IMG/VR virus record: IMGVR_UViG_3300042887_002926
Coordinates: 1 to 47,816 of that record
From: a virus
DNA: 47,816 bases
Reading direction: 5' to 3' (one strand)
Every line of letters begins with the position of its first letter. The first letter of the stretch is position 1. The notes under the pieces are model-generated. The model searched no databases. It had not been told where the DNA came from and saw only the letters and a program-made list of their open reading frames with translations. Positions 10,975 to 28,489 of this stretch are shown here, in pieces. The position numbers and the translations under genes are program-made.

Positions 10975-12453
10975 TTATCCCGCTATAGCCGCGATTTCGT
11001 CTCCCAGCACCATTGCGGCGGTACGCTGTTTGCGCTGCAAATTGCGCGCGATCTGTTCGTCGATTGTGTTCTCTGCGGCGATGTCGATGTAAACAACATT
11101 CTTGCGCGTGCCGATGCGGTGCGCGCGGTCTTCAGATTGCAGCCTTGTTTCGAGGTTGAAGTCATTGCTGAAGTAAAACACTGTCTCAGCCGCCGTCAAC
11201 GTCAACCCAATGCCGCCGGATTGAGGTTGTCCTACGAACACACGCACGTCGCCATTTTGGAAGCTGTCGACAGCGGCTTCCCTGTCGTCACGGCTCACCC
11301 CGCCGTGGTACTGAACGCAAGTGATGCCTGCGTCGGTGAGCGCGTCGCGGACAGCGTCCAGCTCTTCGCGGAACCGCGCCCATATGATGAACTTGCCGTC
11401 CACGTCTTCGATGGCGTCCATCAATGTTTTGAGTCGAGGGTTGTCGTCGGAAACGTACCGGATGCCGAGCGGCGTGTTGACGAAGCCAGACGTGATTTGT
11501 TGCAACTTGATCAATGCCGCCAACTCACTGACCGGCAACTCCACATTGTCGCCCAAATCAATGCGCAACTCGTCTTGCATTTTGTCGTAGGCGCGCTGTT
11601 GGTCGTTGTCCATTTCGAATGTGATGGTTTTGTAAATCTTGTCCGGCAAATCCAAGCAGTCTCGCTTCAACACGCGGAACGAATGCGGCTCCAGCAACTT
11701 TTGCAGCTTGTCAAGGTTGCGCCAACGCGGCGAGCCGTCTGGGTTGCGTGCGATGATTTGTGCGAATGCCGCGCGCGGGTTGCGGCGCACCATGTTTTGC
11801 ATGAGCGGGTGGGTGTTGGGCAGCACGTCAGCGTATTCAGAAACGAACGCTCGGTAGCTGGTCGTACCCAACAAGCCGCTCTCCAGAAACTCCATTTGTG
11901 CGAACACGTCCACCGGCGAGTTGGTGACCGGCGTGCCTGAGGCGATGCGAGCGCCCTTTGCGTACCGGCGCAGCCGCATGAGCGCTTTGGTGCGAGCGGC
12001 GTCTGGGTTCTTGATGCGTGAACTTTCGTCCAAAACAATCCAGGAGTTGCCGCTCAACAAGAATCGCTCACAAAACTCGTAGCCCTTTTTCGTCACCAGC
12101 GCGTCGATGTTCACAGCCAGGAACCGCAGCGGAACAGATTCACCTTCTTGACGAACCTTGAACAAATCTTCCAATGAGCGCATATACCGTTGACCAGCAC
12201 CTGAGCGCCATGCACGAGCGACGATGTTGCCTTCCATATGAGCAGGGATTTCTCGGTTGACCCAGTTGAGGTGAACGCCGTTGGGCGCCACCACCAAGAC
12301 GGTGTCGATTATCCCCTTGGCGTACAGCCGCTCGGCGTCTGCGAGCAGCGTCCAAGTCTTGCCGGTACCTTGTTCCATGAACAAGGCATAGGTCTGACGA
12401 CCGACCATGCGTTGTATGGCTTGCAGTTGATGCGCCATGCCTTGCGTTTTCAT
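10975..12453 (-). CDS. SNF2/SWI2-family DNA helicase-like ATPase
   Basis: 492 residues. Helicase motifs of superfamily 2, SNF2 branch, are present in order: Walker A EQGTGKT (27-33), DESS in place of DEAH (142-145), SGTP (172-175), and in the second RecA-like domain GIGLTLTAAE, then QSEDRAHRIG (motif VI). A Q-motif-like HQLQAIQRM stands at the N-terminus. Such proteins use ATP to translocate on double-stranded DNA; phage members are common near replication genes and may remodel forks or aid recombination. Start ATG overlaps the upstream stop (ATGA) with AGGAG in front. Length fits a compact phage helicase without accessory domains. Confident family, unknown precise job. Confidence 0.9.
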   Translation of the reverse strand: MKTQGMAHQLQAIQRMVGRQTYALFMEQGTGKTWTLLADAERLYAKGIIDTVLVVAPNGVHLNWVNREIPAHMEGNIVARAWRSGAGQRYMRSLEDLFKVRQEGESVPLRFLAVNIDALVTKKGYEFCERFLLSGNSWIVLDESSRIKNPDAARTKALMRLRRYAKGARIASGTPVTNSPVDVFAQMEFLESGLLGTTSYRAFVSEYADVLPNTHPLMQNMVRRNPRAAFAQIIARNPDGSPRWRNLDKLQKLLEPHSFRVLKRDCLDLPDKIYKTITFEMDNDQQRAYDKMQDELRIDLGDNVELPVSELAALIKLQQITSGFVNTPLGIRYVSDDNPRLKTLMDAIEDVDGKFIIWARFREELDAVRDALTDAGITCVQYHGGVSRDDREAAVDSFQNGDVRVFVGQPQSGGIGLTLTAAETVFYFSNDFNLETRLQSEDRAHRIGTRKNVVYIDIAAENTIDEQIARNLQRKQRTAAMVLGDEIAAIAG

Positions 12454-12872
12454 TCTTTGTCTCCTAGTTGCACCAGCATGTCAACGATGTTGTCGATGCC
12501 GATGAGCATTGCGGCTGACCTGAACTGCGGCGTGTTGTATTCGTTGATGTGGTCTGCGGTCGCGCCGCTGAACACGAACACTTCGTCGCTCACACCCACA
12601 ACAACCAGAGAAATGCCGCCCCAGTTGCGCCAGTTGAGATGCCAATTCTTTTGCACTTGCGAGAGCCCTTTGTCGCCGAGGACTTTGGTGGAGCTGCGCG
12701 CAGGCCAATCTTTCACATACTTCAATTCTATTGGGATGAAGTTGCCTTTCACTAATGTGTCCACGTCAGGCCGACCAACACCGACCAAATTCTCGATCCG
12801 TTCTGTGTACACGCGGCCCGCAGCAGCGTCACGCAGACGATCCCACAAGCGTTGTTCTGGACGTCGACTCAC
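12450..12872 (-). CDS. VRR-NUC-like endonuclease (PD-(D/E)XK fold)
   Basis: 140 residues, GTG start with AGGAGG six bases upstream, within the end of the polymerase gene (44-base overlap). The nuclease core is visible: E25, then VGRPDVD (P35-D36) and IELK (E49-L50-K51). These supply the metal-binding acidic residues and the catalytic Lys of the PD-(D/E)XK superfamily. VRR-NUC and related phage proteins cut branched DNA such as Holliday junctions. Between polymerase and SNF2 helicase genes, a role in resolving recombination intermediates before packaging is likely. Fold call is good; the junction-specific activity is inferred. Confidence 0.8.
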   Translation of the reverse strand: MSRRPEQRLWDRLRDAAAGRVYTERIENLVGVGRPDVDTLVKGNFIPIELKYVKDWPARSSTKVLGDKGLSQVQKNWHLNWRNWGGISLVVVGVSDEVFVFSGATADHINEYNTPQFRSAAMLIGIDNIVDMLVQLGDKE

Positions 12873-15660: not shown

Positions 15661-16214
15661 ACTTTTTCCTCGAATGCCATCTTGTGTAAGTCTAACGCCA
15701 CCACCACTTCCACCAGCGCCATCACATCGTCCAGCGCCCGGTGAGTTTGCGGCAGCGGCTTGTTGAGCGTGAACTCATAGAGCTCAGTCAACTTAGGGTT
15801 GCGGCCCCATTGATCCTTGTGCAATCCAACGGTGCAATATTCTTGCGCTGGCCAAGGGAAGTCCAACACATCACACCGCGCCAAATCATTACGAATCATC
15901 GCCCGGTCGAACGGCAAGTTGTGTGCAAACACAGCGAACGCCTGTCCAAAGATGTGCCGCAGTTGTGGCAATGCATCTTTGAACGATGGCGCGCCGACGA
16001 GCGCGTCGTTGGTGATGCCTGTGATGCGCGTGATCTCGTCGGTGATGTCCTCGCCGGGGTGCACAAGTTGAGAGAGCGTCTCTACAACCTGACCTTGCTC
16101 ATCCACCAATGCCGCGCCAAGCTCGATTATCTTCGGTTGCTTGGCGAGCGGCGCTGATGGGTGCAACGTCAGCCCGGTTGTTTCCGTGTCGAAAACGAGA
16201 ACAAGGTTGCTCAC
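15657..16214 (-). CDS. dnaQ: DnaQ-like 3'-5' proofreading exonuclease (DEDDh)
   Basis: 185 residues, GTG start overlapping the upstream stop (GTGA). The DEDDh catalytic set is complete: D9 and E11 in FDTETTG, D103 in HNLPFD, and H158 with D163 in HRALDDV. This is the nuclease that removes misincorporated nucleotides as the epsilon subunit of DNA polymerase III. It ends in an ATGA overlap with the alpha subunit gene, so the two are made together and almost certainly act as one polymerase-exonuclease complex. No separate clamp-binding tail is obvious. Family and residues are clear. Confidence 0.93.
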   Translation of the reverse strand: MSNLVLVFDTETTGLTLHPSAPLAKQPKIIELGAALVDEQGQVVETLSQLVHPGEDITDEITRITGITNDALVGAPSFKDALPQLRHIFGQAFAVFAHNLPFDRAMIRNDLARCDVLDFPWPAQEYCTVGLHKDQWGRNPKLTELYEFTLNKPLPQTHRALDDVMALVEVVVALDLHKMAFEEKV

Positions 16215-16690
16215 CCGGCATTCTCCCGGCGCACGATGAACTTCAGGTCTGTGCCAAGGATGGCGCGCGTGTCGAAGATCACGTAATGATACTTGCGCTT
16301 TTGGTCAATCAAGAACTGGTTGGTGTGGCTGCGCGTGAACACTTCCTGCGCGACCTTGATGCCCATGGTGTTGAGCTTTTGGCGAAACTTTTCCAGCTCT
16401 TCCTCGGTGCAATGCATGCCAATGTGCGAAACAGTCGGACGCCGCCCAGACATCCAGTTTGGCCCGGTTGTGTAATCCAACACCTCCAACTCTAGCGGCT
16501 TGTCGCCGGGGCGAGTGTTTTGGTAGTTGAATGAGAGGTCAGCTTCATTCGTGCCAGAAACGCCGAACACACGACCGTCAGCCACCACATGGTCTTCGAC
16601 CCATTCGTTCAGGCCCAAGTCGGAGAGCAGTTGTTTGGCCTTCACTGGATCGTTCGGGCAAAGGGCAATTTGTTCGATGAAGAATTTCAT
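16211..16690 (-). CDS. VOC (glyoxalase/dioxygenase-fold) protein
   Basis: 159 residues from the ATG at 16690; GGAG lies six bases upstream, and an in-frame ATG at 16702 lies in the stop region of the preceding gene. The paired beta-alpha-beta-beta-beta modules of the vicinal oxygen chelate fold are suggested by FFIEQIALCPNDPVKAKQLL in the first half and VSHIGMHCTEEELEKF in the second, where H93-like and a late Lys/Asp-rich strand would line a metal site. VOC proteins include glyoxalases, dioxygenases and antibiotic-binding proteins. The gene directly follows an SDR gene (1-base gap), so a shared small-molecule reaction is possible. Substrate unknown. Confidence 0.6.
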   Translation of the reverse strand: MKFFIEQIALCPNDPVKAKQLLSDLGLNEWVEDHVVADGRVFGVSGTNEADLSFNYQNTRPGDKPLELEVLDYTTGPNWMSGRRPTVSHIGMHCTEEELEKFRQKLNTMGIKVAQEVFTRSHTNQFLIDQKRKYHYVIFDTRAILGTDLKFIVRRENAG

Positions 16691-16691
16691 T

Positions 16692-17372
16692 TCAAGCTCC
16701 ATAAGGTAGCACGCAACCAGTCAGGTATTTGTGCCGGGGTTTATTGTGCAACAAAAAGGCCATGAACTCTGCGAGCTGGGCCGGGTCAGTTTCCTCACCG
16801 GCCAGCAGGGCATTGATTTGATATTGTTCAGCGTATTCTTTCGTCCAGCCGCGATGCTTGATGACTTGTTCCTCGATGTCCTTGGACATTTCGGTACCCT
16901 TGAGCTTGTTGGGGCTGATGCCGAAGACGGTGATGCCGTGTTTCTTGGTCAGCTCGCGCGCCAGCTGCAGCGTCATGATGTGCGCGGCCCCTTTGGAAGC
17001 GTTGTAAGCGAGCGATGTCGTCATGGGCATGTGCGACGCATTGCTCACGATGTTCAACACGGTGCCATGCGAACGCTTCAACTCCGGCAGCGCCCACTGG
17101 GTCATGCGGTAGATGCCCTTTGCGTTCACCGTCAAGACGTCATCCCAATCCTCTTCTTGGAAATCTTCCAGCCAGCCTGTGATGTTGATCCCTGCGCAGT
17201 TGATCAACACGTCCAGCCGCTCAGGACAGTCACCGTAAGTTTCTTGCGGGTCAACAACGTCATTGCCCTTCTTGCGGTCGAACTCAAACACCTCATGCCC
17301 ATCGCGGCGTAGTGCCGCAACAGCCAGCTTGCCGAGCCCGGCCCCAGAGCCGGTGACGAGAATCTTGCTCAT
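16692..17372 (-). CDS. Short-chain dehydrogenase/reductase (SDR)
   Basis: 226 residues. The Rossmann nucleotide site TGSGAGLG (7-14) matches the SDR TGxxxGxG motif, NCAG (58-61) stabilises the central sheet, and the catalytic set is visible as N83, S110, Y123 and K127 (YNASK). Complete SDRs are NAD(P)H-dependent oxidoreductases acting on alcohols, ketones or sugars. Start ATG has the shared AATCAGAAAGGA upstream. All key residues are kept, so an active enzyme is expected, but the substrate cannot be told. In a phage this is an auxiliary metabolic gene; it lies between a DUF6378 gene and a VOC gene in the nucleotide-metabolism stretch. Confidence 0.88.
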   Translation of the reverse strand: MSKILVTGSGAGLGKLAVAALRRDGHEVFEFDRKKGNDVVDPQETYGDCPERLDVLINCAGINITGWLEDFQEEDWDDVLTVNAKGIYRMTQWALPELKRSHGTVLNIVSNASHMPMTTSLAYNASKGAAHIMTLQLARELTKKHGITVFGISPNKLKGTEMSKDIEEQVIKHRGWTKEYAEQYQINALLAGEETDPAQLAEFMAFLLHNKPRHKYLTGCVLPYGA

Positions 17373-17656
17373 TGCTTTTCCTTTCTGATTAATGATTCGA
17401 CCATGGCGGCGTAAACAGCGAGGTCATGGATTGAGTCTTCGTGCGTCAGGTCGCTGTTGGCGAACCGCGTCATCTTCACAACCATCAACTCGAACAAATG
17501 CCAGACGTTGTAATCTTCTGCGGTGTGCAACCAAACCCCATCAGGGAACATGGCCGTCATGACGTCGCCCACTCGCTTGTAATTGTCGCCATACACTTTG
17601 TTGCGTTCACGGTAGGTCTCGGCCATTTCGGCCAGGATGTCAGCGGCTGTCTTCAT
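17369..17656 (-). CDS. DUF6378-like protein (possible MazG-type nucleotide hydrolase relative)
   Basis: 95 residues from the ATG at 17656, which has AGGAG before it and overlaps the upstream stop as ATGA. Helical throughout, with KVYGDNYKRVGDVM (20-33), HLFELMVVKMTRFA and HEDSIHDLAVYAAM (72-85). This pattern of YGD, a K-x-x-R helix and a final H-x-D-S-x-x-D-x-A-x-Y helix matches the DUF6378 family common in phages. The all-alpha acidic layout recalls MazG/dUTPase-like nucleotide pyrophosphohydrolases, but that link is inference. Neighbours are a HAD phosphatase and SDR, in keeping with nucleotide or small-molecule metabolism. Confidence 0.65.
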   Translation of the reverse strand: MKTAADILAEMAETYRERNKVYGDNYKRVGDVMTAMFPDGVWLHTAEDYNVWHLFELMVVKMTRFANSDLTHEDSIHDLAVYAAMVESLIRKEKQ

Positions 17657-18141
17657 GCGGGCTCCTTGGTCTTGGGTTTTGTGTAGGCACAAACATTGTG
17701 AATCTCTCGCTTTTCAGCTTTTATCCCGGCGCGGAGATACATCGCCACCACGTCAGGCCTGTCGTCGTATGCCGCGACAATTTCTTCCATGGGTACCCCA
17801 TAGATGTGCGGCAACCAGTTGAGCATCGTTTGCTTGAGTTCCAACGAATGACGGTGGTCATTGTTGTTGCGCATGACAAGGTATTCATAAGGTATCTTGT
17901 TGCGACGCAACCATTCCTTCGTCAGCGCGGCGTAGTGCACTGGGCGCGCGGTGAAGATGATTGTCTTGGCGTCGAAATGCTTTTCGAATATGTCGATGTT
18001 GCCGACATGGTCGAAGCCGCTCAACGAATGGTAGTCGTGGTAGCGCTCCATGGGGTCTGACTTTTGCCAGTTGATGTGCGGGATGCGCCATGCGTCGTCA
18101 GCGATGCAGTTGTCGAGGTCGACGATTATGAACTTGTTCAT
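17653..18141 (-). CDS. HAD-family phosphatase (polynucleotide kinase 3'-phosphatase-like)
   Basis: 162 residues. HAD motifs are complete: motif I VDLDN (nucleophile D8, general acid D10), motif II TAR (T64), K103 as motif III, and motif IV AYDDRPD (D126, D127, with D130). The AYDDRPD ending and overall size resemble the phosphatase half of T4 polynucleotide kinase and related phage deoxynucleotidases, which remove phosphates from DNA/RNA 3' ends or nucleotides. No kinase domain is attached. Its ribosome site TCAGAAAGGA lies inside the coding end of the DenV-like gene. Substrate choice between nucleotides and nucleic-acid ends is open. Confidence 0.82.
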   Translation of the reverse strand: MNKFIIVDLDNCIADDAWRIPHINWQKSDPMERYHDYHSLSGFDHVGNIDIFEKHFDAKTIIFTARPVHYAALTKEWLRRNKIPYEYLVMRNNNDHRHSLELKQTMLNWLPHIYGVPMEEIVAAYDDRPDVVAMYLRAGIKAEKREIHNVCAYTKPKTKEPA

Positions 18142-18500
18142 GCAGTTTTCCTTTCTGAGATACGGTCACGGTTGAGTTGCAGTGCTGCTTCGTCAGGCGT
18201 CCACTCGCCCCACCACTCAGGCGGCAAGTTGACTGGTGGTGGTTGCACGTATTGCGGCTTGTACCCGCGCACCAACATCTCCAGCCGCAACGCCAAAAAC
18301 CGATCAAGGCACCAGCCGAGCCGCTGGTAGAAGAACTTGACGTGGCCAGCGCCCAACGTATAGCGCTCAGGCGCCACGAACTTTCGTTTGGACTGGTAGG
18401 CTTTGGCCGCTAGATTAAAAACGCGCGGTAGCTCGCGGTATTCAGCCAGCAGGTGCTGCCGGGAGAGCTCTTCGGGCGGCACGCAATTGATCCGGGTCAT
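18138..18500 (-). CDS. denV: Pyrimidine-dimer DNA glycosylase (T4 endonuclease V-like)
   Basis: 120 residues against 138 in T4 DenV. The start MTRIN matches T4 DenV exactly: T2 is the catalytic N-terminal amine after Met removal, R3 contacts DNA, and E23 in AEYRELPRVF is the catalytic Glu; H16 is also kept. LGAGHVKFFY matches the T4 segment LGAGHVTFFY. The enzyme cuts the glycosyl bond of UV-induced pyrimidine dimers and nicks the site, starting base excision repair. AAGGAGG for its start lies in the end of thyX (ATGA overlap). A sunlit water habitat would fit. The shortened C-terminus lacks the aromatic tail of the T4 enzyme. Confidence 0.92.
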   Translation of the reverse strand: MTRINCVPPEELSRQHLLAEYRELPRVFNLAAKAYQSKRKFVAPERYTLGAGHVKFFYQRLGWCLDRFLALRLEMLVRGYKPQYVQPPPVNLPPEWWGEWTPDEAALQLNRDRISERKTA

Positions 18501-19219
18501 TTTGCCTCCTTGCGCATCTTGTCCACGATCTTCAGCAGTCGGCCCTTCTTAAGTAAATCGCCGCCATATTCTTCCTCGGCGAACTTTTCGATCTCTGCAA
18601 AGTAGTCGCGCCCTTGCTGGAACAAGAACTTCTCAGCCCATGGGTGCACGCGCAACACCTCATCGCACATCGCGTTCATGACCTTCTGATATTCGTTTTG
18701 TGTGCGTCCACCGGTGCGGCTCTTGGCGAGGTCTACGAATGACCTGAGGTTGAACTTGGCGACGATGTTGGTGCTGATGTTGGTCGGCAAGATGCCACGT
18801 GCGTCTTCGGCTGGCAGCCCGAGCTCGATCAACTTGTTGTAGCCGAGCCGGATATTCTCATTGACGATGTCGACGATGCCGCGTGCCTGAATGTCGTTGT
18901 TCACGCGGTCGGTATAGACGTAATCATATTCGCCCATGTTCAACACGCGCATTGTTTGTTGCGCGTAGGAAGCGTTGCGGCTCCGCACGAACTGATGAGT
19001 GAACGCGCGGCTGACGCCTTCAATCATGAAAACGTAATCCACAAACTCCCACGAGCTGGGGATTGTGTTGGCCATGTAATCTAGTTCGGCGAGCTTCTTT
19101 TCTTCCGGCCAAGCACGAATCTCATCCATCAACCCCGGCGACATCGTCAGCCGAGTTGACTTGGTGAAGATCAGAAGCTCCATGGCTTCTGGCGTTGTGC
19201 TGATTAATGTTACCTTCAT
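18497..19219 (-). CDS. thyX: Flavin-dependent thymidylate synthase ThyX, variant signature
   Basis: 240 residues, about the usual ThyX length. Family features: SRAFTHQFVR, the signature region R79-S80-R81 followed by NASYAQQT, and ARGILPTNISTNIVAKFNLRS near residue 145 onward. ThyX makes dTMP from dUMP using FAD, NADPH and methylene-tetrahydrofolate. The classical RHRx7S signature reads RSRx7T here (H to S at 80, S to T at 89), a notable change in residues that contact flavin and dUMP. The start ATG carries CTTAGAAAGGAACAACC upstream and lies inside the end of the upstream zinc-ribbon gene. It would supply thymidine for phage DNA unless the altered site signals another pyrimidine reaction. 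Confidence 0.9.
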   Translation of the reverse strand: MKVTLISTTPEAMELLIFTKSTRLTMSPGLMDEIRAWPEEKKLAELDYMANTIPSSWEFVDYVFMIEGVSRAFTHQFVRSRNASYAQQTMRVLNMGEYDYVYTDRVNNDIQARGIVDIVNENIRLGYNKLIELGLPAEDARGILPTNISTNIVAKFNLRSFVDLAKSRTGGRTQNEYQKVMNAMCDEVLRVHPWAEKFLFQQGRDYFAEIEKFAEEEYGGDLLKKGRLLKIVDKMRKEAK

Positions 19220-19580
19220 GGTTGTTCCTTTCTAAGTTCAAGTCAATTTTCGCAACTCTTCTGTGAGGAGAAACGTCTAACGGAGATGCGCGTATTTGCC
19301 GCACGCGCGTGGCGGTGATGTTGAAGTCTTTGGCGACCACTGAAGCTGGCCGGTCATCCATGGAAATCATTAAATCGCGATTATACCTGCCGATGCGGCG
19401 TTTTATGTGACGCACCGCACAATCGAACTCCCGCTTGTCGCCCAACAACGACAAGTGAACTTCCATTGTTGAGAAGCGATGTTTCCGGTCACAAATGCGC
19501 GCATACTCAACACAATATTCGAGCGGCCTGTGGCTCACGCCGATGACCGCACTCTCAGACCCGCAAATGGGACAGTTCAT
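19122..19580 (-). CDS. Zinc-ribbon/HTH regulator-like protein
   Basis: 152 residues from the ATG at 19580 (ATGA overlap with the FAD gene). It starts MNCPICGSES, with a second ligand pair in RICDRKHRFSTME, like the NrdR zinc ribbon except that one Cys is replaced by His. After a basic helix (RHIKRRIGRYNRD) comes a helix-turn-helix with FNITATRVRQIR, which has the shape of sigma-70 region 4. A role in binding DNA or the host RNA polymerase is plausible. The frame runs 98 bases into thyX, so the last 30 or so residues are of doubtful value. Name withheld; the regulator idea is inference. Confidence 0.6.
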   Translation of the reverse strand: MNCPICGSESAVIGVSHRPLEYCVEYARICDRKHRFSTMEVHLSLLGDKREFDCAVRHIKRRIGRYNRDLMISMDDRPASVVAKDFNITATRVRQIRASPLDVSPHRRVAKIDLNLERNNHEGNINQHNARSHGASDLHQVNSADDVAGVDG

Positions 19581-20476
19581 GCTGCGGCTCTCCGCAGGTC
19601 GTAGGCGTTGTTGGCCTTGAGCAGCTTCTTGATTGCCGCGATGTCGTCTACAACGTCGTCGAGCAGTATGTTGCGCCAAGTCGCGAACCGACCCAACGAA
19701 TATATGTTGCGCTCCATGGTGAGCCTGAACAACAGTTGTTTGCGCACAGCGTCATCGATGGGTGCAATCTTGCCATACTTCTGGTCAACTGAACCCAACG
19801 ACTCACACCCGCTCAGTTGGATGCCGAAGCTCTTGTTGATTTCTTCGTCGTCCATGTCGCCGAGCGGCCCGACCGTTTCCACGATGAGTGTGTCGCCGGT
19901 GATGCTGGCGCGGTAGACGTTCAAGTGCTGTTCGGGGTAGTAGAGTGTTTGGAACACGTCAGCGCCGGGGATGCGCCAGCGATGCACCGTGATGCCAGAG
20001 CGCGAGAACGTCACCGGGGCGAGCCACCCCACCAAGCTCAACACCACCGGCAACGGCGCTGTGGAGATGGTTGGGCGCGGCGCGTTGTAGTTGGCGGGTG
20101 TTTCCCAGTCAATCCGGTCATTCACTGCGGCCACCAGCTGCTCATATAAGTCGTCCGGCGCGATGAACCGTTCAGCCGGGTCAAGGTTCCAAATGCTCCG
20201 CTCACCGGCCAGCCGCCCGACAACCTTCTGGGCGTAAAGGTTGGCCCAACGGATGGCGCTGGTTTGTTGGGTGCCGTCGGCCCAGATGCCCTTGCGTACC
20301 CGAACCTTGCGGAACTCAATGCCCGTCAGCCGCGCGACAGCGTCACTGCGGAAACGCAGCAACGCCTTGTGCGCAGCTTTGGGTTGCGCAGCGGCTTCCA
20401 CCACTTGCGCATTCGGCCACGCATGGGCTGCAATCAGCCCCGCGAGGCCAGCGCCAACGATCACTGGGGCCGTCAT
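19577..20476 (-). CDS. FAD-dependent oxidoreductase-like protein
   Basis: 299 residues. The N-terminus PVIVGAGLAGLIAAHAW is a classic FAD-binding Rossmann GxGxxG start, and a C-terminal NIYSLGRFATWRNILLDD resembles the second FAD-contact region seen in amine-oxidase and UDP-galactopyranose-mutase-like flavoproteins. The middle is unfamiliar. The substrate is unknown. It is coupled by ATGA overlaps to genes on both sides, in a set leading into ThyX, itself an FAD enzyme. Such short FAD proteins recur in phages without known function. FAD binding is likely; the reaction is not inferable. Confidence 0.75.
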   Translation of the reverse strand: MTAPVIVGAGLAGLIAAHAWPNAQVVEAAAQPKAAHKALLRFRSDAVARLTGIEFRKVRVRKGIWADGTQQTSAIRWANLYAQKVVGRLAGERSIWNLDPAERFIAPDDLYEQLVAAVNDRIDWETPANYNAPRPTISTAPLPVVLSLVGWLAPVTFSRSGITVHRWRIPGADVFQTLYYPEQHLNVYRASITGDTLIVETVGPLGDMDDEEINKSFGIQLSGCESLGSVDQKYGKIAPIDDAVRKQLLFRLTMERNIYSLGRFATWRNILLDDVVDDIAAIKKLLKANNAYDLRRAAA

Positions 20477-21036
20477 TCGTCATCCTCAACGATGGCGAGA
20501 TGATTTTTCTCGACCAGCTTTTGCAGGTAGCCGCGCACGTTTTGCTGGAAGTGTTCCTCTAGCTCTGCCACCGTGCAGGTTTGGTTCGGTGCGTTTTGCA
20601 CGTAGACCAACACTTGGTTGCGGATTGAACCGGCTTGCGGGCGAGATTCACCCGCGTTGGTGGCGACCACCTTGTGAATGATTACGCGTTTGCGTCGTTC
20701 GCCTTTGGGTTGCTCTGAGACTTTCGGGCGCGGCTCGATGGGTTGTTGTGCCGTCACGGCATCGTGCAGTGAATGACTCATGGTGCCTTCCTTGTACGGA
20801 TTGTTGTTTTTTATTTCGCTGGGCGTGAGCGCCACTGGCTGCACGCCTTTGGGCACGCCTGCGCGCCCGACAGCGTCCTGAGCGGACATGATGGCCATGC
20901 CCACTTGCACTTCTGCTGCTGCGCGGCTCCCGAACCCTTTGAAGCCGGGATCATTCTTCAGCGCGCGGTAAGTTGCGTTCAAGTCTTCCAATGTAGCGCC
21001 CTTCACGGCGTCACGGTCGCGGATGATGTTTGGCAT
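20473..21036 (-). CDS. Hypothetical protein with C-terminal winged-helix-like region
   Basis: 187 residues from the ATG at 21036, which has CTCAGAAAGGT upstream; longer in-frame starts run into the DUF932 gene and are unlikely. The first half includes ATLEDLNATYRALKND and SRAAAEVQVGMAI. A basic, disordered middle (PKGERRKRVIIHKV) leads to a C-terminal helix pattern, NQVLVYVQNAP then TVAELEEHF and VRGYLQKLVEKNHLAIVED, resembling a winged helix. DNA binding is possible. No named family recognised. Confidence 0.55.
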   Translation of the reverse strand: MPNIIRDRDAVKGATLEDLNATYRALKNDPGFKGFGSRAAAEVQVGMAIMSAQDAVGRAGVPKGVQPVALTPSEIKNNNPYKEGTMSHSLHDAVTAQQPIEPRPKVSEQPKGERRKRVIIHKVVATNAGESRPQAGSIRNQVLVYVQNAPNQTCTVAELEEHFQQNVRGYLQKLVEKNHLAIVEDDE

Positions 21037-21079
21037 TGCGTTCACCTTTCTGAGTTTGCTGAATTGATTATGCTGGATT

Positions 21080-21823
21080 TTACCACGTCTCGGCAACTTC
21101 TTCTGCGAGTTGCCACAACTGCGCATTGTAGTCTACCGAGCGAGTGATGTCGCTCAATGGGCGGGAAGTGGCCGCACGACCTGAGCGTGAGAGGCCTTCG
21201 ATGCCGCCGCGCACGGTATTTTCCTGGACGCGGTTGAACACCGACCACAAGTCACCCTTGTCGTCTTCTGCGCGGCGCGGCTCCAGCAACTCAGCCGGTG
21301 AGAACCGTTGCGCGTCACCCCAACGCAGTTGTGCGGCGAAGCGCGCGAACTCAATGCGCTGACTTTTGCTCAGGTCAACTTTCGACCAGCGGTCGATTTG
21401 CGTGTAGAGCTTGGAAGTGTTTTTCGCCAACCCTTGCATGCGGTGAATCAAGTCAGCCGCCGCGTCACCGGTGTGACGTACCACTTCATGGCCAACCGTG
21501 TTGCCGACAACCAGCCCATTGGCGCAAACGAACCGGAACACTCCCGCCATCACGCGCGCCGAGGAAGAACCGTCGTGGCTGTTGATGAGGATGATGCGCG
21601 GTACGGCCCCATTGATTTCTTCGTGGTCTGGGTGGCGAAAGTCGATCATGTGCTTGGCGTAAAGTGAACTACGCTTGCGCGGGTTGGCGACGGAGCTGGT
21701 GGCAACCTGCCAACCTTCTTGCGCGAAGCGGTCGACAATCTCGCCGCTGGAAATGAATTGGTAACGCGCGCTCACAGTTGGGGCGGCTCCGTTGACCAAG
21801 GCGGGTGCTGGTAGTGTTTTCAT
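21080..21823 (-). CDS. DUF932 (phage/plasmid-like TIGR03299-type) protein
   Basis: 247 residues; ATG with GAGGAGACACTC before it. The DUF932 core is visible: RYQFISSGEIVDRF, then RIILINSHDGSSSARVMAGVFRFVCANGLVVG, and a long helical second half. DUF932 proteins are widespread on phages and plasmids and are often induced early; a role in plasmid/phage DNA maintenance or defence evasion has been suspected but is not settled. Its neighbours are small early proteins of unknown function. Family call is good; function open. Confidence 0.8.
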   Translation of the reverse strand: MKTLPAPALVNGAAPTVSARYQFISSGEIVDRFAQEGWQVATSSVANPRKRSSLYAKHMIDFRHPDHEEINGAVPRIILINSHDGSSSARVMAGVFRFVCANGLVVGNTVGHEVVRHTGDAAADLIHRMQGLAKNTSKLYTQIDRWSKVDLSKSQRIEFARFAAQLRWGDAQRFSPAELLEPRRAEDDKGDLWSVFNRVQENTVRGGIEGLSRSGRAATSRPLSDITRSVDYNAQLWQLAEEVAETW

Positions 21824-21833
21824 GAGTGTCTCC

Positions 21834-22007
21834 TCAAAGGGTTTGTTGTTGAACAGAGATGGTGTAACCGAGGCCTTTGATTTGTTCCAGGACGCGATCG
21901 GTGAATGTTTTGCAGCCGACCAGCGTTGCGAGCTTTTGGGCTACCGGGCAAACCGGGTACACCGCCCGGTTGCCGTAGTTGTTTGCGATTCTGACGGTGA
22001 TGTTCAT
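21834..22007 (-). CDS. Small conserved phage protein (57 residues)
   Basis: 57 residues: ATG at 22007, TGA at 21836-21834. It begins MNITVRIANNYGNRAVYPVC and continues through KTFTDRVLEQIKGLGYTI. I recognise this N-I-T-V-R-I-x-N-x-Y-G-x-x-x-(I/V)-Y-P-V-C pattern from many short phage proteins of unknown function. The start is preceded by the complete early motif AACTCAGAAAGGA. Too short for most gene-length cutoffs but clearly coding: good ribosome site, fits exactly between two genes, recognisable family. Confidence 0.8.
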   Translation of the reverse strand: MNITVRIANNYGNRAVYPVCPVAQKLATLVGCKTFTDRVLEQIKGLGYTISVQQQTL

Positions 22008-22014
22008 TGCGTTG

Positions 22015-22028
22015 TCCTTTCTGAGTTA
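22015..22028 (-). promoter_or_regulatory. Conserved early start-associated motif, one of twelve copies
   Basis: On the coding strand this reads TAACTCAGAAAGGA and lies just before the start at 22007. Related copies (core YAGAAAGGW or near) lie at 9188-9200, 10070-10078, 10951-10961, 17379-17390, 18149-18159, 19226-19238, 21044-21056, 22625-22637, 22846-22860, 23497-23507 (all minus strand) and 23672-23682 (plus strand). AGAAAGGA alone would be an ordinary ribosome site; the conserved AACTYA ahead of it goes beyond what pairing with 16S rRNA needs. Late genes use AGGAG-type sites instead. Confidence 0.75.
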
Positions 22029-22616
22029 GACAATTTTGAACTTGTAGCCGCCGAAGTTTGCCTTGCCGGCAGCTTTCAATGCACCACGGAATTTGATGTG
22101 TTGGCCGATCGGCAATGCCAGCACCATGAACGCCTCCCGCACTGAACGGTGCGAGACCTTCTTGCCGTCAGGCGTGACAACCTCGACCGCGTGACGCGCT
22201 GCACGAGCAGCTGCGACCTGCTTGTCCTGCCATGAGGCGGCGATGGAAGCGCTGCGCTCGGCGCTGGCGGCAGCTTTGCGCACTGCGCGGCCAGTTTCAG
22301 TGTTCCACTCATGACCGCACATGTGGCAGTCAGCGATGTGTTCGTTGACGACATGTTGTCTGCCGCGAATGATGCGCACTTCGCCGGTGGTGAGGTTGTC
22401 GGTGTCGCCGCACTCAGGGCAGCGTAGCTCATGAGCGTTGTCGGCAGCGACTGCGCGCTGGGCAGCAGCCATGATGTGCTCGGCGGCAACCTTCGGCAAC
22501 AAAGCAGCGCAACGGCGCTCGGCGGTCTTGCGGTCAGCGAACTTCTTGACCGGCTTGGCGTTGTGAGCGTTATAAAATGCGACCAGTTCAGCAGTGGTGG
22601 CGGTGGTGATGTTCAT
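22026..22616 (-). CDS. Conserved zinc-ribbon phage protein
   Basis: 196 residues. The N-terminal segment LVAFYNAHNAKPVKKFADR followed by TAERRC is a module I recognise in many phage hypotheticals. A zinc ribbon follows: CPECGDTDN, then CHMCGHEWN about 35 residues later. Then comes a basic helical region (KAAASAERSASIAASWQDK) and a C-terminal strand-rich piece with FGGYKFKIV. Nucleic-acid binding is likely from the zinc ribbon and basic charge. Upstream is the full early motif; the stop TAA abuts the next copy of the motif. Confidence 0.65.
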   Translation of the reverse strand: MNITTATTAELVAFYNAHNAKPVKKFADRKTAERRCAALLPKVAAEHIMAAAQRAVAADNAHELRCPECGDTDNLTTGEVRIIRGRQHVVNEHIADCHMCGHEWNTETGRAVRKAAASAERSASIAASWQDKQVAAARAARHAVEVVTPDGKKVSHRSVREAFMVLALPIGQHIKFRGALKAAGKANFGGYKFKIV

Positions 22617-22643
22617 GATCAGTTTCCTTTCTGAGTTGTCGAA

Positions 22644-22838
22644 TTAAATCAGGTCATGCTCTTCAACGGCGATGCAGTTGGCTTCGTCCTCGCCCCAGAC
22701 ATTGTTGCCTTGCGGCTCGTGGCCTGAGTATTCAGCGACGTCACCAGCGTGCTCGCACGCTTGCTTCAGCGTCTTGTAAACGCCGCCGATGGACTTCTCG
22801 CCGTCGATCGTTTCGGTCACGATGTAAACTTTTTTCAT
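22644..22838 (-). CDS. Small acidic hypothetical protein
   Basis: 64 residues, ATG preceded by CTCAGAAAGGAACTAGCC. Sequence MKKVYIVTETIDGEKSIGG then a helix KTLKQACEHAGDVA and an acidic end (VWGEDEANCIAVEEHDLI). It looks like a small beta-alpha-beta protein. The strong negative charge could mimic DNA, as known for several phage inhibitors, but nothing specific supports that. Flanked on both sides by the early start-associated motif, as if an exchangeable cassette. Confidence 0.6.
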   Translation of the reverse strand: MKKVYIVTETIDGEKSIGGVYKTLKQACEHAGDVAEYSGHEPQGNNVWGEDEANCIAVEEHDLI

Positions 22839-22856
22839 GGCTAGTTCCTTTCTGAG

Positions 22857-23489
22857 TTAGAGGATGGTTGGGCGGCTGATCATAGTTTGCGCAACGCCGT
22901 CACGCTCACCGTGTTCTTTGATCGTTGCTTTGACGCGCAGTTCATCGCCGCGCTCCCAAGGGTTAGAACCTTTGTAAACGACAACATTGTTGTCACCGTC
23001 GCGGCACACATTCACAAACGTGATTCCGAACCGCGTTTCGAAAGAGAACACAGCTTCCACTTTCAATGCAAACTCACGGCGCTCGCCGACGTTGCCGACA
23101 TGCTGGCTGTTGGCGCGGTCGAGATCTTTCTTCGCAGCGAAATCAATCAAACGCTGTTCAGCGCGCGCCAATGCTTTGGCGACCACAGCAGTTTGTTTTT
23201 CGCTCAACGAACCCCAGTCATCCAGCGCGCATTGCATCTGAGCAAGCATGTTGCCGAAATCGCCCTTGTACATTCCGCGCACCAATGGGTGCGGCTTGTC
23301 TTCGTCTGCTGGGTGATGCTTGAACTCGCCGCGTTGGTTCAGCCAATCGCTCAGGCGCGCGTTGTTCGGGTCAGCTGCGAGCCACTCACGTGAGCGACGG
23401 ATGGCTGCGTTGCGCTTGATTGCATCGGCGCGACCCTGCTCCCATGCGCCTACATTGTGAATTAGTGTGCCGCCGGTCGTGATTCTCAT
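22857..23489 (-). CDS. Conserved phage hypothetical protein, first gene of the minus-strand operon
   Basis: 210 residues, first gene after the divergent control region. N-terminal basic helices (RADAIKRNAAIRRSREWLAADP) are followed by WLNQRGEFKHHPADEDKPH. The C-terminal part NVGERREFALKVEAVFSFETRFGITFVNV with VVVYKGSNPWERGDELRVKATIKEHGERDGV has an OB-like beta-rich pattern and matches a widespread phage domain whose G-E-R and K-G-x-x-x-x-x-x-G-D motifs I recognise but cannot name. RNA or DNA binding is a fair guess. Early position suggests a takeover or replication role. Confidence 0.6.
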   Translation of the reverse strand: MRITTGGTLIHNVGAWEQGRADAIKRNAAIRRSREWLAADPNNARLSDWLNQRGEFKHHPADEDKPHPLVRGMYKGDFGNMLAQMQCALDDWGSLSEKQTAVVAKALARAEQRLIDFAAKKDLDRANSQHVGNVGERREFALKVEAVFSFETRFGITFVNVCRDGDNNVVVYKGSNPWERGDELRVKATIKEHGERDGVAQTMISRPTIL

Positions 23490-23688: not shown

Positions 23689-24618
23689 ATGAAGGAAAAT
23701 GAAGCATTTCTGGCCGATTTGGCCAGAGGGTTGGCCCCGGACGAGCGCCTTATTTTGTGCGGCTTCCCCGGCGACCCTTACGCCGCTGGCCCGACCGCTT
23801 GGCGGCCCCGGCCATGGAAGGTGGGCGCTGAGGTGCCATTCGGGCCGCTGGACAACGCCTACGTGACCGTGGGCGCGTTCAAGCGCGCCACCGACGGTAC
23901 CTACCGCCGCCGCACCGAGACGTTCACGGCTGGCTTGGCGCTCATGGTGGACGATGTCGGCACAAAGGTTGACCGGACATTTGTGGAGGCAATGCAGCCA
24001 ACTTGGAAGATCGAAACTTCTCCCGGCAACGAACAGTGGTGGTACTTCTTGCAAGAGCCTGAGCGCGACATGGCGCGGTTCGATGGGCTTATACGCGCGT
24101 TCATTCACGGCAAGCTCCTGGGCGCGGATCCAGGGATGAGCGGCGTGACACGTGTGGGCCGGTTGCCCGGACACTTGAATGGCAAAAAGGCCTACAACGG
24201 CTGGACAACGCGCGTGACGGAAGCCAACGGCACCCGGTGGACGCCGCAAGAACTCCTGGACGGGTTCGGGTTGCAAATCCGTGGACAGAGAGTCGCGCGG
24301 GAAAAATTGCCGACTGAGGAAGCGTTAGAGCGCAACCGTATGTTCATGAACGTCTACAAGTGGCTCGACCAGCGCAACATGCTCAAGCGGCATGAACCCG
24401 ACCCGAGCGGTTGGACAGAGATGACTTGCCCATGGGTGGGTGACCACACTGGCGGCGTTGATTCAGGGGCCGCGATACGTGAGCCAGCGCCCGAGAACGA
24501 TTATTACGGTGCCTTCAGGTGCCACCATGGACATTGTGTCAACAAGGGTTGGTCGCAGTTGACGGAATGGGTGAACGAAGAATCAATCGAAGAACTGGAA
24601 AGGGCCGCGCATGAATGA
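23689..24618 (+). CDS. RepB-like/AEP-type DNA primase
   Basis: 309 residues, start ATG preceded by CTCAGAAAGGATAAATT. Features of a small archaeo-eukaryotic-type primase family: the acidic pair in LALMVDDVGTK (D88, D89), a TSPGNEQWWYFLQEP strand (110-124) and RVGRLPGHLNGK (155-166), where R and N/K contact nucleotides. The C-terminal part holds a zinc-type motif CPWVGDHTGG (C247, H253) with FRCHHGHC (C278, C283). Such proteins make RNA or DNA primers and work with a separate helicase; a DUF5906 helicase gene lies 1.6 kb downstream on the same strand. First gene of the plus-strand early unit. Strong family match. Confidence 0.82.
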   Translation: MKENEAFLADLARGLAPDERLILCGFPGDPYAAGPTAWRPRPWKVGAEVPFGPLDNAYVTVGAFKRATDGTYRRRTETFTAGLALMVDDVGTKVDRTFVEAMQPTWKIETSPGNEQWWYFLQEPERDMARFDGLIRAFIHGKLLGADPGMSGVTRVGRLPGHLNGKKAYNGWTTRVTEANGTRWTPQELLDGFGLQIRGQRVAREKLPTEEALERNRMFMNVYKWLDQRNMLKRHEPDPSGWTEMTCPWVGDHTGGVDSGAAIREPAPENDYYGAFRCHHGHCVNKGWSQLTEWVNEESIEELERAAHE

Positions 24619-25343: not shown

Positions 25344-25569
25344 ACCGATTGCGAAGGTCATAGGAATTTACGACGGCTACTTTATGGCGGCTTCCATCAA
25401 TGAGGCGGCATTGCCTGTTGTTGGTGCGCAACTCTATGGCGCGCCGCCCAAGCCGGTGTGGCGAGGGTTGACAACAGCGGAAACAAAAGCGCTTTGGGTC
25501 GCTGCGGAGAAAAAGCCGAGCGTGTTCGCAGAGATGATTGGACGGAAATTGAAGGAGAGGAATGCATGA
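25336..25569 (+). CDS. Small conserved phage hypothetical protein
   Basis: 77 residues from a GTG that overlaps the previous gene's end by 8 bases. The pattern VIGIYDGYFMAASINEAALPVVGAQLYGAPP, then GLTTAETKALW and FAEMIGRKLKERNA at the end, matches a widespread family of short phage proteins seen alone or fused to others. Function unknown. Overlap with neighbours on both sides suggests translation coupling in the primase-helicase operon. Confidence 0.6.
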   Translation: MDEPIAKVIGIYDGYFMAASINEAALPVVGAQLYGAPPKPVWRGLTTAETKALWVAAEKKPSVFAEMIGRKLKERNA

Positions 25570-26213
25570 GCTTTATTTGCCCGTTGCCGCCCATAAAAGT
25601 GCTTGTAAGAGCTGAATATTTGTATGACTTTGAGCGAGGCCATAACGAACAAGTACAAGGCGTTTGGGTGAGCTGCAAATCGCTGCGCGGCGAAGCGCTG
25701 CGGTTCGAAACTTACCTGCCTGAATATGGCGCGTTGTTCGACAAATTGCCTATCAGCGCATTTTTGCATGATGAGAAAATGCAGCTGGGCGAGTTGCCGC
25801 TGGACGTGTTGCAAATTTGGGATGCCATGAGCTATGACATCACACTCGTGGAAAAGCCGTTGTTGAAAGGGTTGCGCGCTGAATTTTTCGGCAAAGATAA
25901 ACGAACGCATTCCGGCGAATACATGTTCACACTCGACAATGCGCACACCGACCCGCGAGTGCCAGACTACACATTCAGTGAAACGCCTGACGAACACAAG
26001 TCGTTCAATGTGTTGAAACTCGACAATGGACAGTTCGCGTTGCAACCGAACAACCGTTGCCGCTTCTTTGACCCGGCGCTCAACCCGCACGAAATGAAGA
26101 TGCCGAACTTCCACGTCGCGACCAAAAAGTATCGCGTCGAACAACATGCAAAGTGGCGGTTAGGCGACACAACAACAACAACATACGACGACAGGGTCGA
26201 GGAAAAAGAATGA
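25566..26213 (+). CDS. Conserved hypothetical protein preceding primase-helicase
   Basis: 215 residues, ATG at 25566 in an ATGA overlap with the gene before, with GGAGAGGA upstream; an in-frame ATG at 25458 lies inside that gene and is rejected. The fold looks beta-rich (LVRAEYLYDF, QVQGVWVSCKSLRGEALRF) with DKLPISAFL and CRFFDPALNPHEMKMP near the end and a Thr run at the C-terminus. I recall similar proteins beside phage DUF5906 helicases but cannot name them. Probably an accessory protein for replication. Confidence 0.6.
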   Translation: MSFICPLPPIKVLVRAEYLYDFERGHNEQVQGVWVSCKSLRGEALRFETYLPEYGALFDKLPISAFLHDEKMQLGELPLDVLQIWDAMSYDITLVEKPLLKGLRAEFFGKDKRTHSGEYMFTLDNAHTDPRVPDYTFSETPDEHKSFNVLKLDNGQFALQPNNRCRFFDPALNPHEMKMPNFHVATKKYRVEQHAKWRLGDTTTTTYDDRVEEKE

Positions 26214-27718
26214 CAACAATCGAGGAAAGAACTGCCGCCAGAGAAGCGGCGCTGGCAGCAGCCGTGGCAGCTTCCCGGCGGCTCGCGCGGCCTGAAGACT
26301 ACGTGTTCGACAAAGCGCAAGAGGCATTTTGGGACTTGCGTGACGGGACACAACATTCAGAAAAAGCGGTCGACGCTTCCATCCCTATCGAGCTTTGGCG
26401 CGTTGAAGTGGAAGAAGCCGAAGAGGAAGCGCCAGCCGAAGGGCGGCGCGGGCGGCAACGGCGTCGACGTGAACGGCTCATCCCACCTTCGCGCGATATC
26501 ATGCGCGTCGAAAATGATCAGTTCGTCGAAGGTAGCACGTGGTGGCCCGGTGAGCCGCAAATCATCAAGGATATATTTATAGATTCCAACGGGTGGCGTC
26601 CAGCGCCGGGCCGCAGGATCTATAACAAATACCTGCCGCCGCCCGAACTCACCGGCGACGCTGCACAAGCGGTTGTTTGGGTCAACCACGTACGCAAGCT
26701 CTGGCCCGACCCGGTCGAACATGAATTCTTCTTCGACTTCTGCGCGCATATGGTCCAGCGCCCAGACATAAAGTGCAACGCCGCAATCGTCTTGAGCGGC
26801 ACACAAGGCATCGGTAAAGATGCGGCGCTCATGCCAGTGAAAGCTGCGGTAGGCAACTGGAACACCAAGAACATCGACCCCGACGAGCTGTTTTCTCCGT
26901 ACAAGCCGTGGCTCGAGACCTTGATGCTCGTGGTCGACGAAGTGCGCCCGACGAAGGATGAGTTCCATGCGTCGAGCGCTTACAACATCCTCAAACCAAT
27001 GATCGTCGCACCCCCAGACACGCTGCCGCTGAACGACAAATACGCGAAGCTCCGCCACATCATCAACCGACTGCGCGTGTTCATCACGACCAACGACTGG
27101 ATGAGCATGTACATCCCGCCCGAAGACCGCCGCATGTTCATCATGCACTCTCACCTGCCACAAAAGTGGCATGAGAAAGAAAAACAACCAGCCTACTTCA
27201 ATGAGTTGTTCGCGTGGTTCGAAAGTGGCGGCATCAATCACGTTGCCGCATGGCTGGCGGCGAGAGATCTTTCAGCGTTCGACCCCAAGGCACAAATCGC
27301 TCGCACAGCAGGCTGGGGCGCTGTGGCGGCTTCCTGGGGCGAACCTGAAGACGCTGTCGCTTGGGTGCTTGACCAGCTGGGCAACCCACCCGCCATCCTA
27401 GGACAAGAACTCGTCAACCCACAGTTCGACCACAGGGAAGAAGTCGCCAACATGCTCAAGTCGCCGCGCAAGATCTCTCACCGCATGAACCGCGCGGGCT
27501 ACGTCAATGTGCCTGCACCGGGCGGCGCTGACCGATGGGTGTTCCGCTCGGAAGGCAAAACGCTGCGCGCGAGATATGCATTCGTGCGCGGAGAGCTGAC
27601 CCGTGATATCGATGCCGCGACCGAGCTGGTCCGCAAAAGAGGAGAAGAATTGCTCGCCGCACAATCCCAAGATGGGGGAAATGTGGTCGTTTTGGAAGCA
27701 AAAAAGGGCGGATTCTGA
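26210..27718 (+). CDS. DUF5906-type primase-helicase ATPase
   Basis: 502 residues from the ATG at 26210 (ATGA overlap, GAGG upstream). The N-terminal 110 residues are charged and probably disordered. The ATPase core has FDFCAHMVQRPDIKCNAAIVLSG, Walker A GTQGIGKD (197-204), a Walker B-like LMLVVDEV and a sensor FITTND, the hallmark set of the phage/virulence-associated helicases grouped as DUF5906. These unwind DNA at the fork and usually pair with an AEP primase. The C-terminal domain (about 380-500) may bind DNA. It ends right at the start of the repeat cluster that may be the origin. Confidence 0.85.
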   Translation: MTTIEERTAAREAALAAAVAASRRLARPEDYVFDKAQEAFWDLRDGTQHSEKAVDASIPIELWRVEVEEAEEEAPAEGRRGRQRRRRERLIPPSRDIMRVENDQFVEGSTWWPGEPQIIKDIFIDSNGWRPAPGRRIYNKYLPPPELTGDAAQAVVWVNHVRKLWPDPVEHEFFFDFCAHMVQRPDIKCNAAIVLSGTQGIGKDAALMPVKAAVGNWNTKNIDPDELFSPYKPWLETLMLVVDEVRPTKDEFHASSAYNILKPMIVAPPDTLPLNDKYAKLRHIINRLRVFITTNDWMSMYIPPEDRRMFIMHSHLPQKWHEKEKQPAYFNELFAWFESGGINHVAAWLAARDLSAFDPKAQIARTAGWGAVAASWGEPEDAVAWVLDQLGNPPAILGQELVNPQFDHREEVANMLKSPRKISHRMNRAGYVNVPAPGGADRWVFRSEGKTLRARYAFVRGELTRDIDAATELVRKRGEELLAAQSQDGGNVVVLEAKKGGF

Positions 27719-27940
27719 TCCCGAGATTGAAGCAGAATTAATTTCGATGAGAGCCGCAAGAATAATAGTCGTCTCGGGCAACTTGGGATCCTGATCCCGA
27801 GATTGAAGCATAATCCCAAAAATCCCAAGATAGTAATTGTTGAATAATTTTGTGTTAAATTGTATTAAATTAAGAAAAAGAGAAGAATAGGAAATCTCGG
27901 GCATCTCGGAATCTCGGGATTTGGCGGCGTACCCGAGATT
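27663..27940. repeat. Iteron-like cluster of ATCCCGAGAT repeats
   Basis: About eleven full or partial copies of ATCCC(G/A)AGAT. Direct copies: 27664-27673, 27718-27727, 27794-27803, 27813-27822 (weak), 27822-27831 and 27932-27939 (partial). Inverted copies: 27772-27778 (partial), 27782-27789, 27894-27901, 27903-27910 and 27911-27920. Two of the direct copies sit in a perfect 20-base repeat, CTGATCCCGAGATTGAAGCA, at 27715-27734 and 27791-27810. Mostly direct copies lie on the left and inverted ones on the right of an A+T-rich core. The gene-free stretch is 27719-28069. Confidence 0.85.
27831..27893. other. A+T-rich core, candidate replication origin
   Basis: By my count 12 of these 63 bases are G or C, far below the surrounding genes. 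The core lies between direct and inverted iteron-like repeats and directly after the primase-helicase gene. Iterons beside an easily melted A+T-rich block are the usual design of theta-type origins. It could instead be an upstream element of the late promoter at 27990. Function inferred. Confidence 0.5.
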
Positions 27941-27989
27941 TAGGAAACTTTTTATGCTTTGTGCGAAATAGAAACGCGCGGCGAAAATG

Positions 27990-28018
27990 TTGCCGGAAGA
28001 ACAGAGCGCGGCGATAAT
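27990..28018 (+). promoter_or_regulatory. Sigma-70-like promoter ahead of the terminase/late operon
   Basis: TTGCCG (27990-27995), a 17-base spacer and GATAAT (28013-28018, 5 of 6 to TATAAT) form a good sigma-70 promoter, 50 bases after the last iteron-like repeat and 52 bases before the small terminase ATG. The predicted transcript starts near 28025. Confidence 0.6.
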
Positions 28019-28069
28019 CGCGCGAAGAATGCTGTGTGAAGCATTCAAAAATATTTGGAGCTTGATGCG

Positions 28070-28489
28070 ATGCAGCAACCCAGGAGCAAGGGCGGTCGAA
28101 AGCCCGGCAGTGGCGGGCGTCCTCCAGGAATCCCAAACAAAGCTACGCGCGCGGCGCGTGAAGCCATCGCGGCGTTTGTCGACGACAATGCACCGCGCAT
28201 GCAGGAGTGGCTGGACAAGGTTGCGCATGGCGTGCCTCGTGTTGATGCGGAAGGCAATCAGTTGCACGACGAAGACGGCAACCCGATGTGGTTCCACCCG
28301 CCCAACCCTGAGAAAGCGTTCAACATGCTCAGGGATGTGGTTGAGTATCACGTGCCCAAGCTCGCTCGCAGCGAGTTGACGGGCGCAGGCGGCGGCCCGA
28401 TTAGTGTGGCGGCCATCGACATGAAAGGGTTGTCTGACGCCGAGCTGGAAACAATGCAGCGGCTCTTGGCGAAGGCGAGCGACGCATGA
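28070..28489 (+). CDS. terS: Terminase small subunit-like protein
   Basis: 139 residues from the ATG at 28070 (GGAG nine bases ahead; a TTG at 28055 is an alternative). The N-terminus is basic and flexible (SKGGRKPGSGGRPPGIPNKA), then comes a helical part (REAIAAFVDDNAPRMQEWLDKV) and EKAFNMLRDVVEYHVPKLAR near residue 80 onward. This sequence style is what I know from proteins just upstream of large terminases in many phages, which recognise the packaging site. The large subunit lies 250 bases downstream. Call rests on style and place. Confidence 0.7.
   Translation: MQQPRSKGGRKPGSGGRPPGIPNKATRAAREAIAAFVDDNAPRMQEWLDKVAHGVPRVDAEGNQLHDEDGNPMWFHPPNPEKAFNMLRDVVEYHVPKLARSELTGAGGGPISVAAIDMKGLSDAELETMQRLLAKASDA

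Follow-up and report, generated by a model that had tools for sequence, protein, structure and literature searches.

A block of short repeats around an A+T-rich core, located at the end of a DUF5906 helicase gene, is in our assessment the replication origin of the phage, where iterons would be bound and melted by the phage's own DUF5906 helicase (probability, about 0.8). The block lies in the virus record IMGVR_UViG_3300042887_002926, whose 47,816 bases are referred to here as the window. The first-pass annotation of this DNA had weighed an origin against a binding array for a late-gene activator. The former is strengthened because the element is conserved, follows the helicase and not the terminase, changes in matched fashion in its two arms, and has analogues in SaPI and SCC elements, and the latter is weakened.

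Repeat units, core, and promoter in the window

Eleven units of the ATCCC(G/A)AGAT type span positions 27664 to 27939. Those starting at 27664, 27718, 27794, 27813, 27822, and 27930 are on the plus strand, and those at 27771, 27780, 27894, 27903, and 27911 are on the minus strand (Table 1). Ten have at most two mismatches to ATCCCRAGAT, and the unit at 27771 has three. Five of the units are exact copies, whereas 0.10 is expected in the whole window, and this number was reached in none of 100 shuffled sequences. The 10 units with at most two mismatches fall inside one 300-base span, versus 2 to 4 in 40 first-order Markov sequences. Sites of that quality show no window-wide excess over shuffles (54 versus 51); the unusual feature is their clustering, not their frequency. 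In a scan at steps of 50 bases, no second 300-base stretch of the window contained five copies of one 7-mer. Nothing in the window was matched by Rfam at the gathering threshold or by a tRNA scan, and a blast search with positions 27700 to 27930 against phage and plasmid collections gave none at an E value of 0.01.

Table 1. Features of the repeat block and its surroundings (positions in the window)
Feature	Positions	Strand	Details
RepB-type primase gene, upstream partner of the helicase	23689-24618	+	PF16793, E 2e-10; PHROG 4861 DNA primase, E 2e-35
Stand-alone DUF5906 (SF3/D5-like) helicase gene	26153-27718	+	521 aa; Pfam
Left iteron block	27664-27831		5 units +, 2 units -; contains the 20-base repeat 27715-27734 / 27791-27810
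Core-proximal left unit pair	27813-27831	+	9 bp apart
A+T-rich core, proposed melting site	27833-27891	+	12/59 G+C; starts GTAATTGTTG, ends GAATAGG
Right iteron block, three inverted units	27894-27920	-	9 and 8 bp apart
Outlying direct unit	27930-27939	+	TACCCGAGAT
Sigma-70-like promoter TTGCCG-N17-GATAAT	27990-28018	+	Ahead of the packaging operon
First late gene	28055-28489	+	terS-like by position only; no Pfam family

The first-pass annotation had described about eleven such copies around the core, a number that was borne out, and the perfect 20-base direct repeat and the promoter sequence that it reported are both exact. Its core of 12 G+C in 63 bases compares with 12 in 59 in the delimited core and with a minimum of 11 among the 63-mers nearby. 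The arrangement that it gave, mostly direct units on the left and inverted units on the right, holds as a trend, with two inverted units on the left (27771 and 27780) and one direct unit on the right (27930). It had also placed the block between the helicase gene and the promoter; this is mostly so, but the block begins within the helicase gene, which contains the first unit. A turn of the cumulative GC skew at 27.8 kb, proposed there as a check of the origin, is not seen, the minimum being near 15 to 20 kb; GC skew is weak evidence either way because it follows the gene strand.

Conservation of the element and matching of its arms

Relatives of the helicase were taken from viral contigs, and in 45 of these the 3' end of the helicase gene is present. 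The element was searched for with a profile trained on 20 sequences, with L140, L144, L027, L003, and L006 kept out. The match was no more than 650 bases past the helicase stop in 36 of the 45 contigs, a count that does not represent independent events because many contigs are near-copies and because 20 sequences trained the profile. A search of related phages for the repeats next to their DUF5906 gene had been suggested at first pass. In two further contigs, which are rearranged, the match lies away from the helicase stop and upstream of terS. Contigs L010 and L025 end too early to show the element, and no profile match was found in L015, L017, L018, L153, and L154. The first three of these resemble the rearranged contigs in gene order, and their sequence stops short of terS; the other two, L153 and L154, are only distantly related (45% and 37%). 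Over all 172 loci, many of which overlap or are near-copies, 75 were matched, each at one place, the extra matches being reverse-strand echoes at that place. Matches of the 20 training sequences are true by construction because these were used to train the profile; matches outside training include L044, L045, L064, L068, L072, and L140 and, more weakly, L027 and L144 (E values, 5e-4 to 1.2e-3).

The gap between helicase and element is 621 to 646 bases in 6 of the 36 contigs (L011, L016, L020, L021, L022, and L152). An apparent small leftward gene occupies it in L011, L016, L020, and L152, and in L021 and L022 as judged by distance only. Contigs L024, L031, and L036 end 610 to 732 bases past the helicase stop, which may be chance or may mark genome ends.

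The anatomy was compared in 23 representatives, the near-identical L003 and L006 being dropped and the core ends being chosen by eye. Units on the left side are mainly forward (57, versus 25 reverse), and those on the right side are mainly reverse (60, versus 9 forward). Identity at a lag of 9 bases is 0.49 on the left and 0.47 on the right (shuffled maxima, 0.34 and 0.32), and a second autocorrelation peak is seen near lag 18. The core is 51 to 74 bases long in 21 of the 23 (121 in L140 and 97 in L144); its left end is ATTGTT in 14, and its right end is AATAG in 20, extended to AATAGG in 16. By these measures, the element is conserved in the polarity of its units, the ~9-bp phasing, and the semiconserved core ends ATTGTT and AATAG. 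One helicase relative, L172 (45%), was found by alignment against species genomes in a Burkholderiaceae MAG contig, where by eye CTTCGCCCG units with 9-bp spacing surround a core directly after the helicase stop. This match gives no more than a weak hint of the host.

The unit itself varies by lineage, the forms recognized by eye being CCC(G/A)AGAT, ACCAAGAT, AACCCGAGA, AAACCCG, and CAAGAA. Nevertheless, in the 23 representatives the left and right arms share on average 12.0 6-mers within a genome and 6.3 between genomes, with a permutation p value of 5e-5 that is the floor of 20,000 permutations; nine hand-picked divergent lineages gave 15.6 within and 5.5 between. A single protein reading both arms would be expected to lead to such matching within a genome. 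In 21 of 23 alignment rows, the putative recognition helix of the helicase (see below) has an intact KSPR. The remaining two rows are those of L027 and L031, whose units are, as judged by eye, the most altered, a pattern that is only suggestive because L027 retains two CCCGAG units beside its core.

The helicase and the linkage of the element to replication genes

Alignment suggests that the helicase probably starts near position 26213. By sequence, the protein matches the C-terminal region of NrS-1 (E value, 7e-7), and the best fold match of its model is also NrS-1 (Foldseek E value, 1.3e-5; Z score of 10.6 and rmsd of 9.5 over 306 residues), followed by AsfvPrimPol, D5, and SaPI5 PriRep1. 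The motor aligned with the SaPI5 structure 7ola over 189 residues (Z score, 8.2; rmsd, 4.1), and the alignment with PriRep1 (7pds; Z score, 6.2) covers residues 161 to 479. The motor thus has the same fold as the SaPI-type initiator helicases, as judged on a whole AlphaFold model with a pLDDT of only 65. When the C-terminal part was modelled alone by AlphaFold, the pLDDT was about 90 over residues 402 to 501, and a winged-helix-like part is predicted at residues about 400 to 505, with a putative recognition helix at 438 to 447. Fold searches with this domain alone gave weak scores (best Z score, 5.0), and Foldseek gave nothing under an E value of 0.001; the top fold-search rows are what we take to be largely winged-helix proteins. 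In eleven distant alignment rows, the C-terminal domain is 37 to 50% identical to that of the window and the motor 65 to 78%, which indicates that the domain diverges fast.

The phage has genes for Pol III alpha and for an RNase_T-family exonuclease in addition to that for the RepB-type primase. By analogy with known initiators, subunits of the stand-alone helicase would bind the iterons through the winged-helix-like C-terminal domain, and the opposed blocks would set two assemblies face to face across the A+T-rich core. The core would then melt and helicase rings would be loaded in opposite directions, giving bidirectional replication, in which the RepB-type primase would take over together with the Pol III alpha that the phage encodes.

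Two other gene regions were noted in the window. The minus-strand region from 10975 to 23489 encodes Pol III alpha, the RNase_T exonuclease, an SNF2-type helicase, ThyX, a pyrimidine-dimer glycosylase, and DUF932. The gene at 25458 to 26213 strongly matches PHROG 3704, which is named ferredoxin (E value, 1e-89); such a protein was not detected at 1e-8 in several helicase-bearing relatives, e.g., L012 and L013.

cosB and pac sites often consist of repeats near terS, and the element lies upstream of a terS-like gene in the window, as would a packaging recognition site bound by the small terminase subunit. However, the element is kept together with other terminases. The large subunits of L023 and L026 belong to the TerL_ATPase/TerL_nuclease families, i.e., to another Pfam family, and their small subunits are Terminase_4-like (that of L026 is under the Pfam cutoff). 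L029 has an Sf6-type small subunit, and the TerL proteins of L029 and L034 match only Terminase_6N. None of these four TerL proteins was detected with that of the window at 1e-8. Conversely, L058, L060, L063, and L097 have TerL proteins 83 to 88% identical to that of the window, AAA_25 helicases, and arrays built of different units. Those of L060 and L063 start right after the helicase stop and are 5 to 7 kb from terL. In the tested contigs, the element therefore does not go with the terminase type, and we regard a cosB/pac-like function as extremely improbable.

The array type goes with the replication module instead, because contigs with unlike TerL proteins keep the element and contigs with similar TerL proteins but AAA_25 helicases have different arrays. 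No profile match was present in 65 of the 74 loci found through TerL (L042 to L115), many of them short, which come from the best 80 of at least 599 matches. A position before the late operon also recurs in these sequences, beside the link to the replication module. In the rearranged contigs L014/L065 and L038, the primase and helicase genes lie beside DUF932 and the element is found before terS, 4.5 to 5.2 kb from the helicase stop. These contigs indicate that the element need not adjoin the helicase gene, and they speak against the origin reading, as does L097, in which the array immediately precedes terS and the AAA_25 helicase is about 5 kb away from the array.

Arrays of other types were also noted among the TerL relatives. 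CGTAACA or GCGACAGTAAA arrays followed by ~18 to 21 A's are present in L060 (4400 to 4620), L063 (2830 to 3215), and L059 (20 to 290); of these three, the AAA_25 helicase was seen for L060 and L063. Arrays of the AATCGTTCGG type lie upstream of terS in L095 to L098, L100 to L102, L054, and L058, of which L054, L097, and L101 were inspected at the sequence level.

The main rival, suggested by the frequent position of the element ahead of the late operon, is a binding array for a regulator that acts on the promoter of the packaging operon, as an activator or as a repressor/switch. In 14 of the 23 representatives, a sigma-70-like promoter sequence is found in the 330 bases after the core, the background in this phage being 12 of 432 windows, and the rearranged contigs, as well as L097 with its other array, keep the array just upstream of terS. 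However, the distance from core to promoter in these 14 ranges from 34 to 199 bases, and in the other 9 no sequence of the promoter-like form was found within 330 bases. A set distance between promoter and array, as for an activator, was thus not found; a distance-tolerant activator would still fit. The first downstream gene varies as well: it is terS-like, an HNH nuclease (L023), an Sf6-type terS (L029), or, by eye only, a GIY-YIG-like gene (L008). The distance of the L060 and L063 arrays from terL also counts against a regulator. The g19.1 protein, proposed as a binding candidate in the first-pass annotation, was undetected at 1e-8 in the element-bearing L023 and L024, where it is perhaps too diverged. 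Regulation of the packaging promoter as the explanation of the element is therefore unlikely in our view. Because a promoter-like sequence follows the core so often (14/23), the element may nonetheless act in late expression, either solely or besides serving as an origin.

If the element is the origin, a wider and more tentative proposal is that the helicase gene travels with its private iteron origin as a portable cassette, passing from one packaging module to another, unlike one in many Caudoviricetes. The iteron unit would change in step with the winged-helix recognition helix, and the helicase-origin code would then be readable from genomes alone. We consider this possible but doubtful. 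If true, such a code could be used to find origins in phages known only from metagenomes, few of which have a known origin.

Comparison with known origins and named phages

In SaPIs, iteron sets flank an A+T-rich region. Phage P4 has two sites, ori and crr, and a bacterial-type primase fused to its helicase, whereas the window has one site and a stand-alone helicase. The helicase of RSF1010 has a RecA fold. SaPI Rep and SCCmec Cch2 recognize iterons directly downstream of their own genes, Rep apparently acting as two hexamers and Cch2 binding through its C-terminal domain (PMC7581432). The origin of SaPI Rep and the putative origin of SCCmec Cch2 resemble the element in that short iterons lie immediately 3' of the gene for an initiator helicase. 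Here, too, short repeats surround an A+T-rich region, and the position directly downstream of the helicase gene is seen in the window and in the 36 contigs mentioned above. The element differs in belonging to the genome of a whole phage, which encodes a RepB-type primase and Pol III alpha, and in having opposed blocks of ~9-bp units with semiconserved core ends, for which binding is predicted only. By its anatomy and likely working, the element would belong to the SaPI-like kind, as a candidate origin. If this is right, the SaPI-type origin, studied in satellites, extends to whole phage genomes.

A winged-helix domain of the primase-helicase (alpha protein) binds origin repeats in P4, as is predicted here (PMC4234260). 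The RSF1010 oriV system (RepA/RepB'/RepC) also combines a RepB-type primase with an iteron origin but has a separate iteron protein, RepC (PMC4234260). In pRN1 and, by proposal, in Bordetella phage BIP-1, the origins are stem-loops located 3' of the SF3 primase-helicase gene, as the element is, and the pRN1 origin is movable (PMC4234260). This position could favor a stem-loop origin recognized as a folded single strand, and folding is strong in L029, L031, L034, and L172 (z scores, -4.2 to -6.8). The pRN1 and BIP-1 origins are, however, read as stem-loops without origin iterons (PMC4234260), and what recurs in the element is unit, phase, and polarity. In the window, the strong stem-loop of a pRN1-type origin is not found, since the element folds no better than shuffles (z score, +1.3), and that of L023 has a z score of -1.2. 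We therefore consider a pRN1/BIP-1-type origin very improbable. A literature search, to which most subscription papers were out of reach, found no description of this phage element.

We also examined 17 named phages among the 40 matches listed of 144 records with a distant helicase match, looking for any 7-mer that occurs at least five times between 100 bases upstream and 350 bases downstream of the stop of the helicase-like gene. Thirteen of the 17, including MW202483, the most similar of them (34% identity), had no such array, which weighs against the origin reading. The element profile matched none of the 17 loci. The other four distantly related phages have private arrays after the helicase-like gene: Curvibacter PCA1 (AGGTTCC, 6 copies), Burkholderia AH2 (AGGTCCG, 8 copies), Klebsiella S9a (CTTGTAA, 5 copies), and Escherichia vB_EcoM-611R5 (AGGTGAC, 9 copies). 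Elsewhere in the named-phage loci, five copies were reached in 13 of 503 windows. The feature tables of these four phages contain no origin annotation at the arrays; if the origin reading is right, it would provide a rule for predicting origins in other phages, these four included. In vB_EcoM-611R5 (L169, 3550 to 3830), the nine AGGTGAC copies are both direct and inverted and surround an A+T-rich stretch right after the helicase-like gene.
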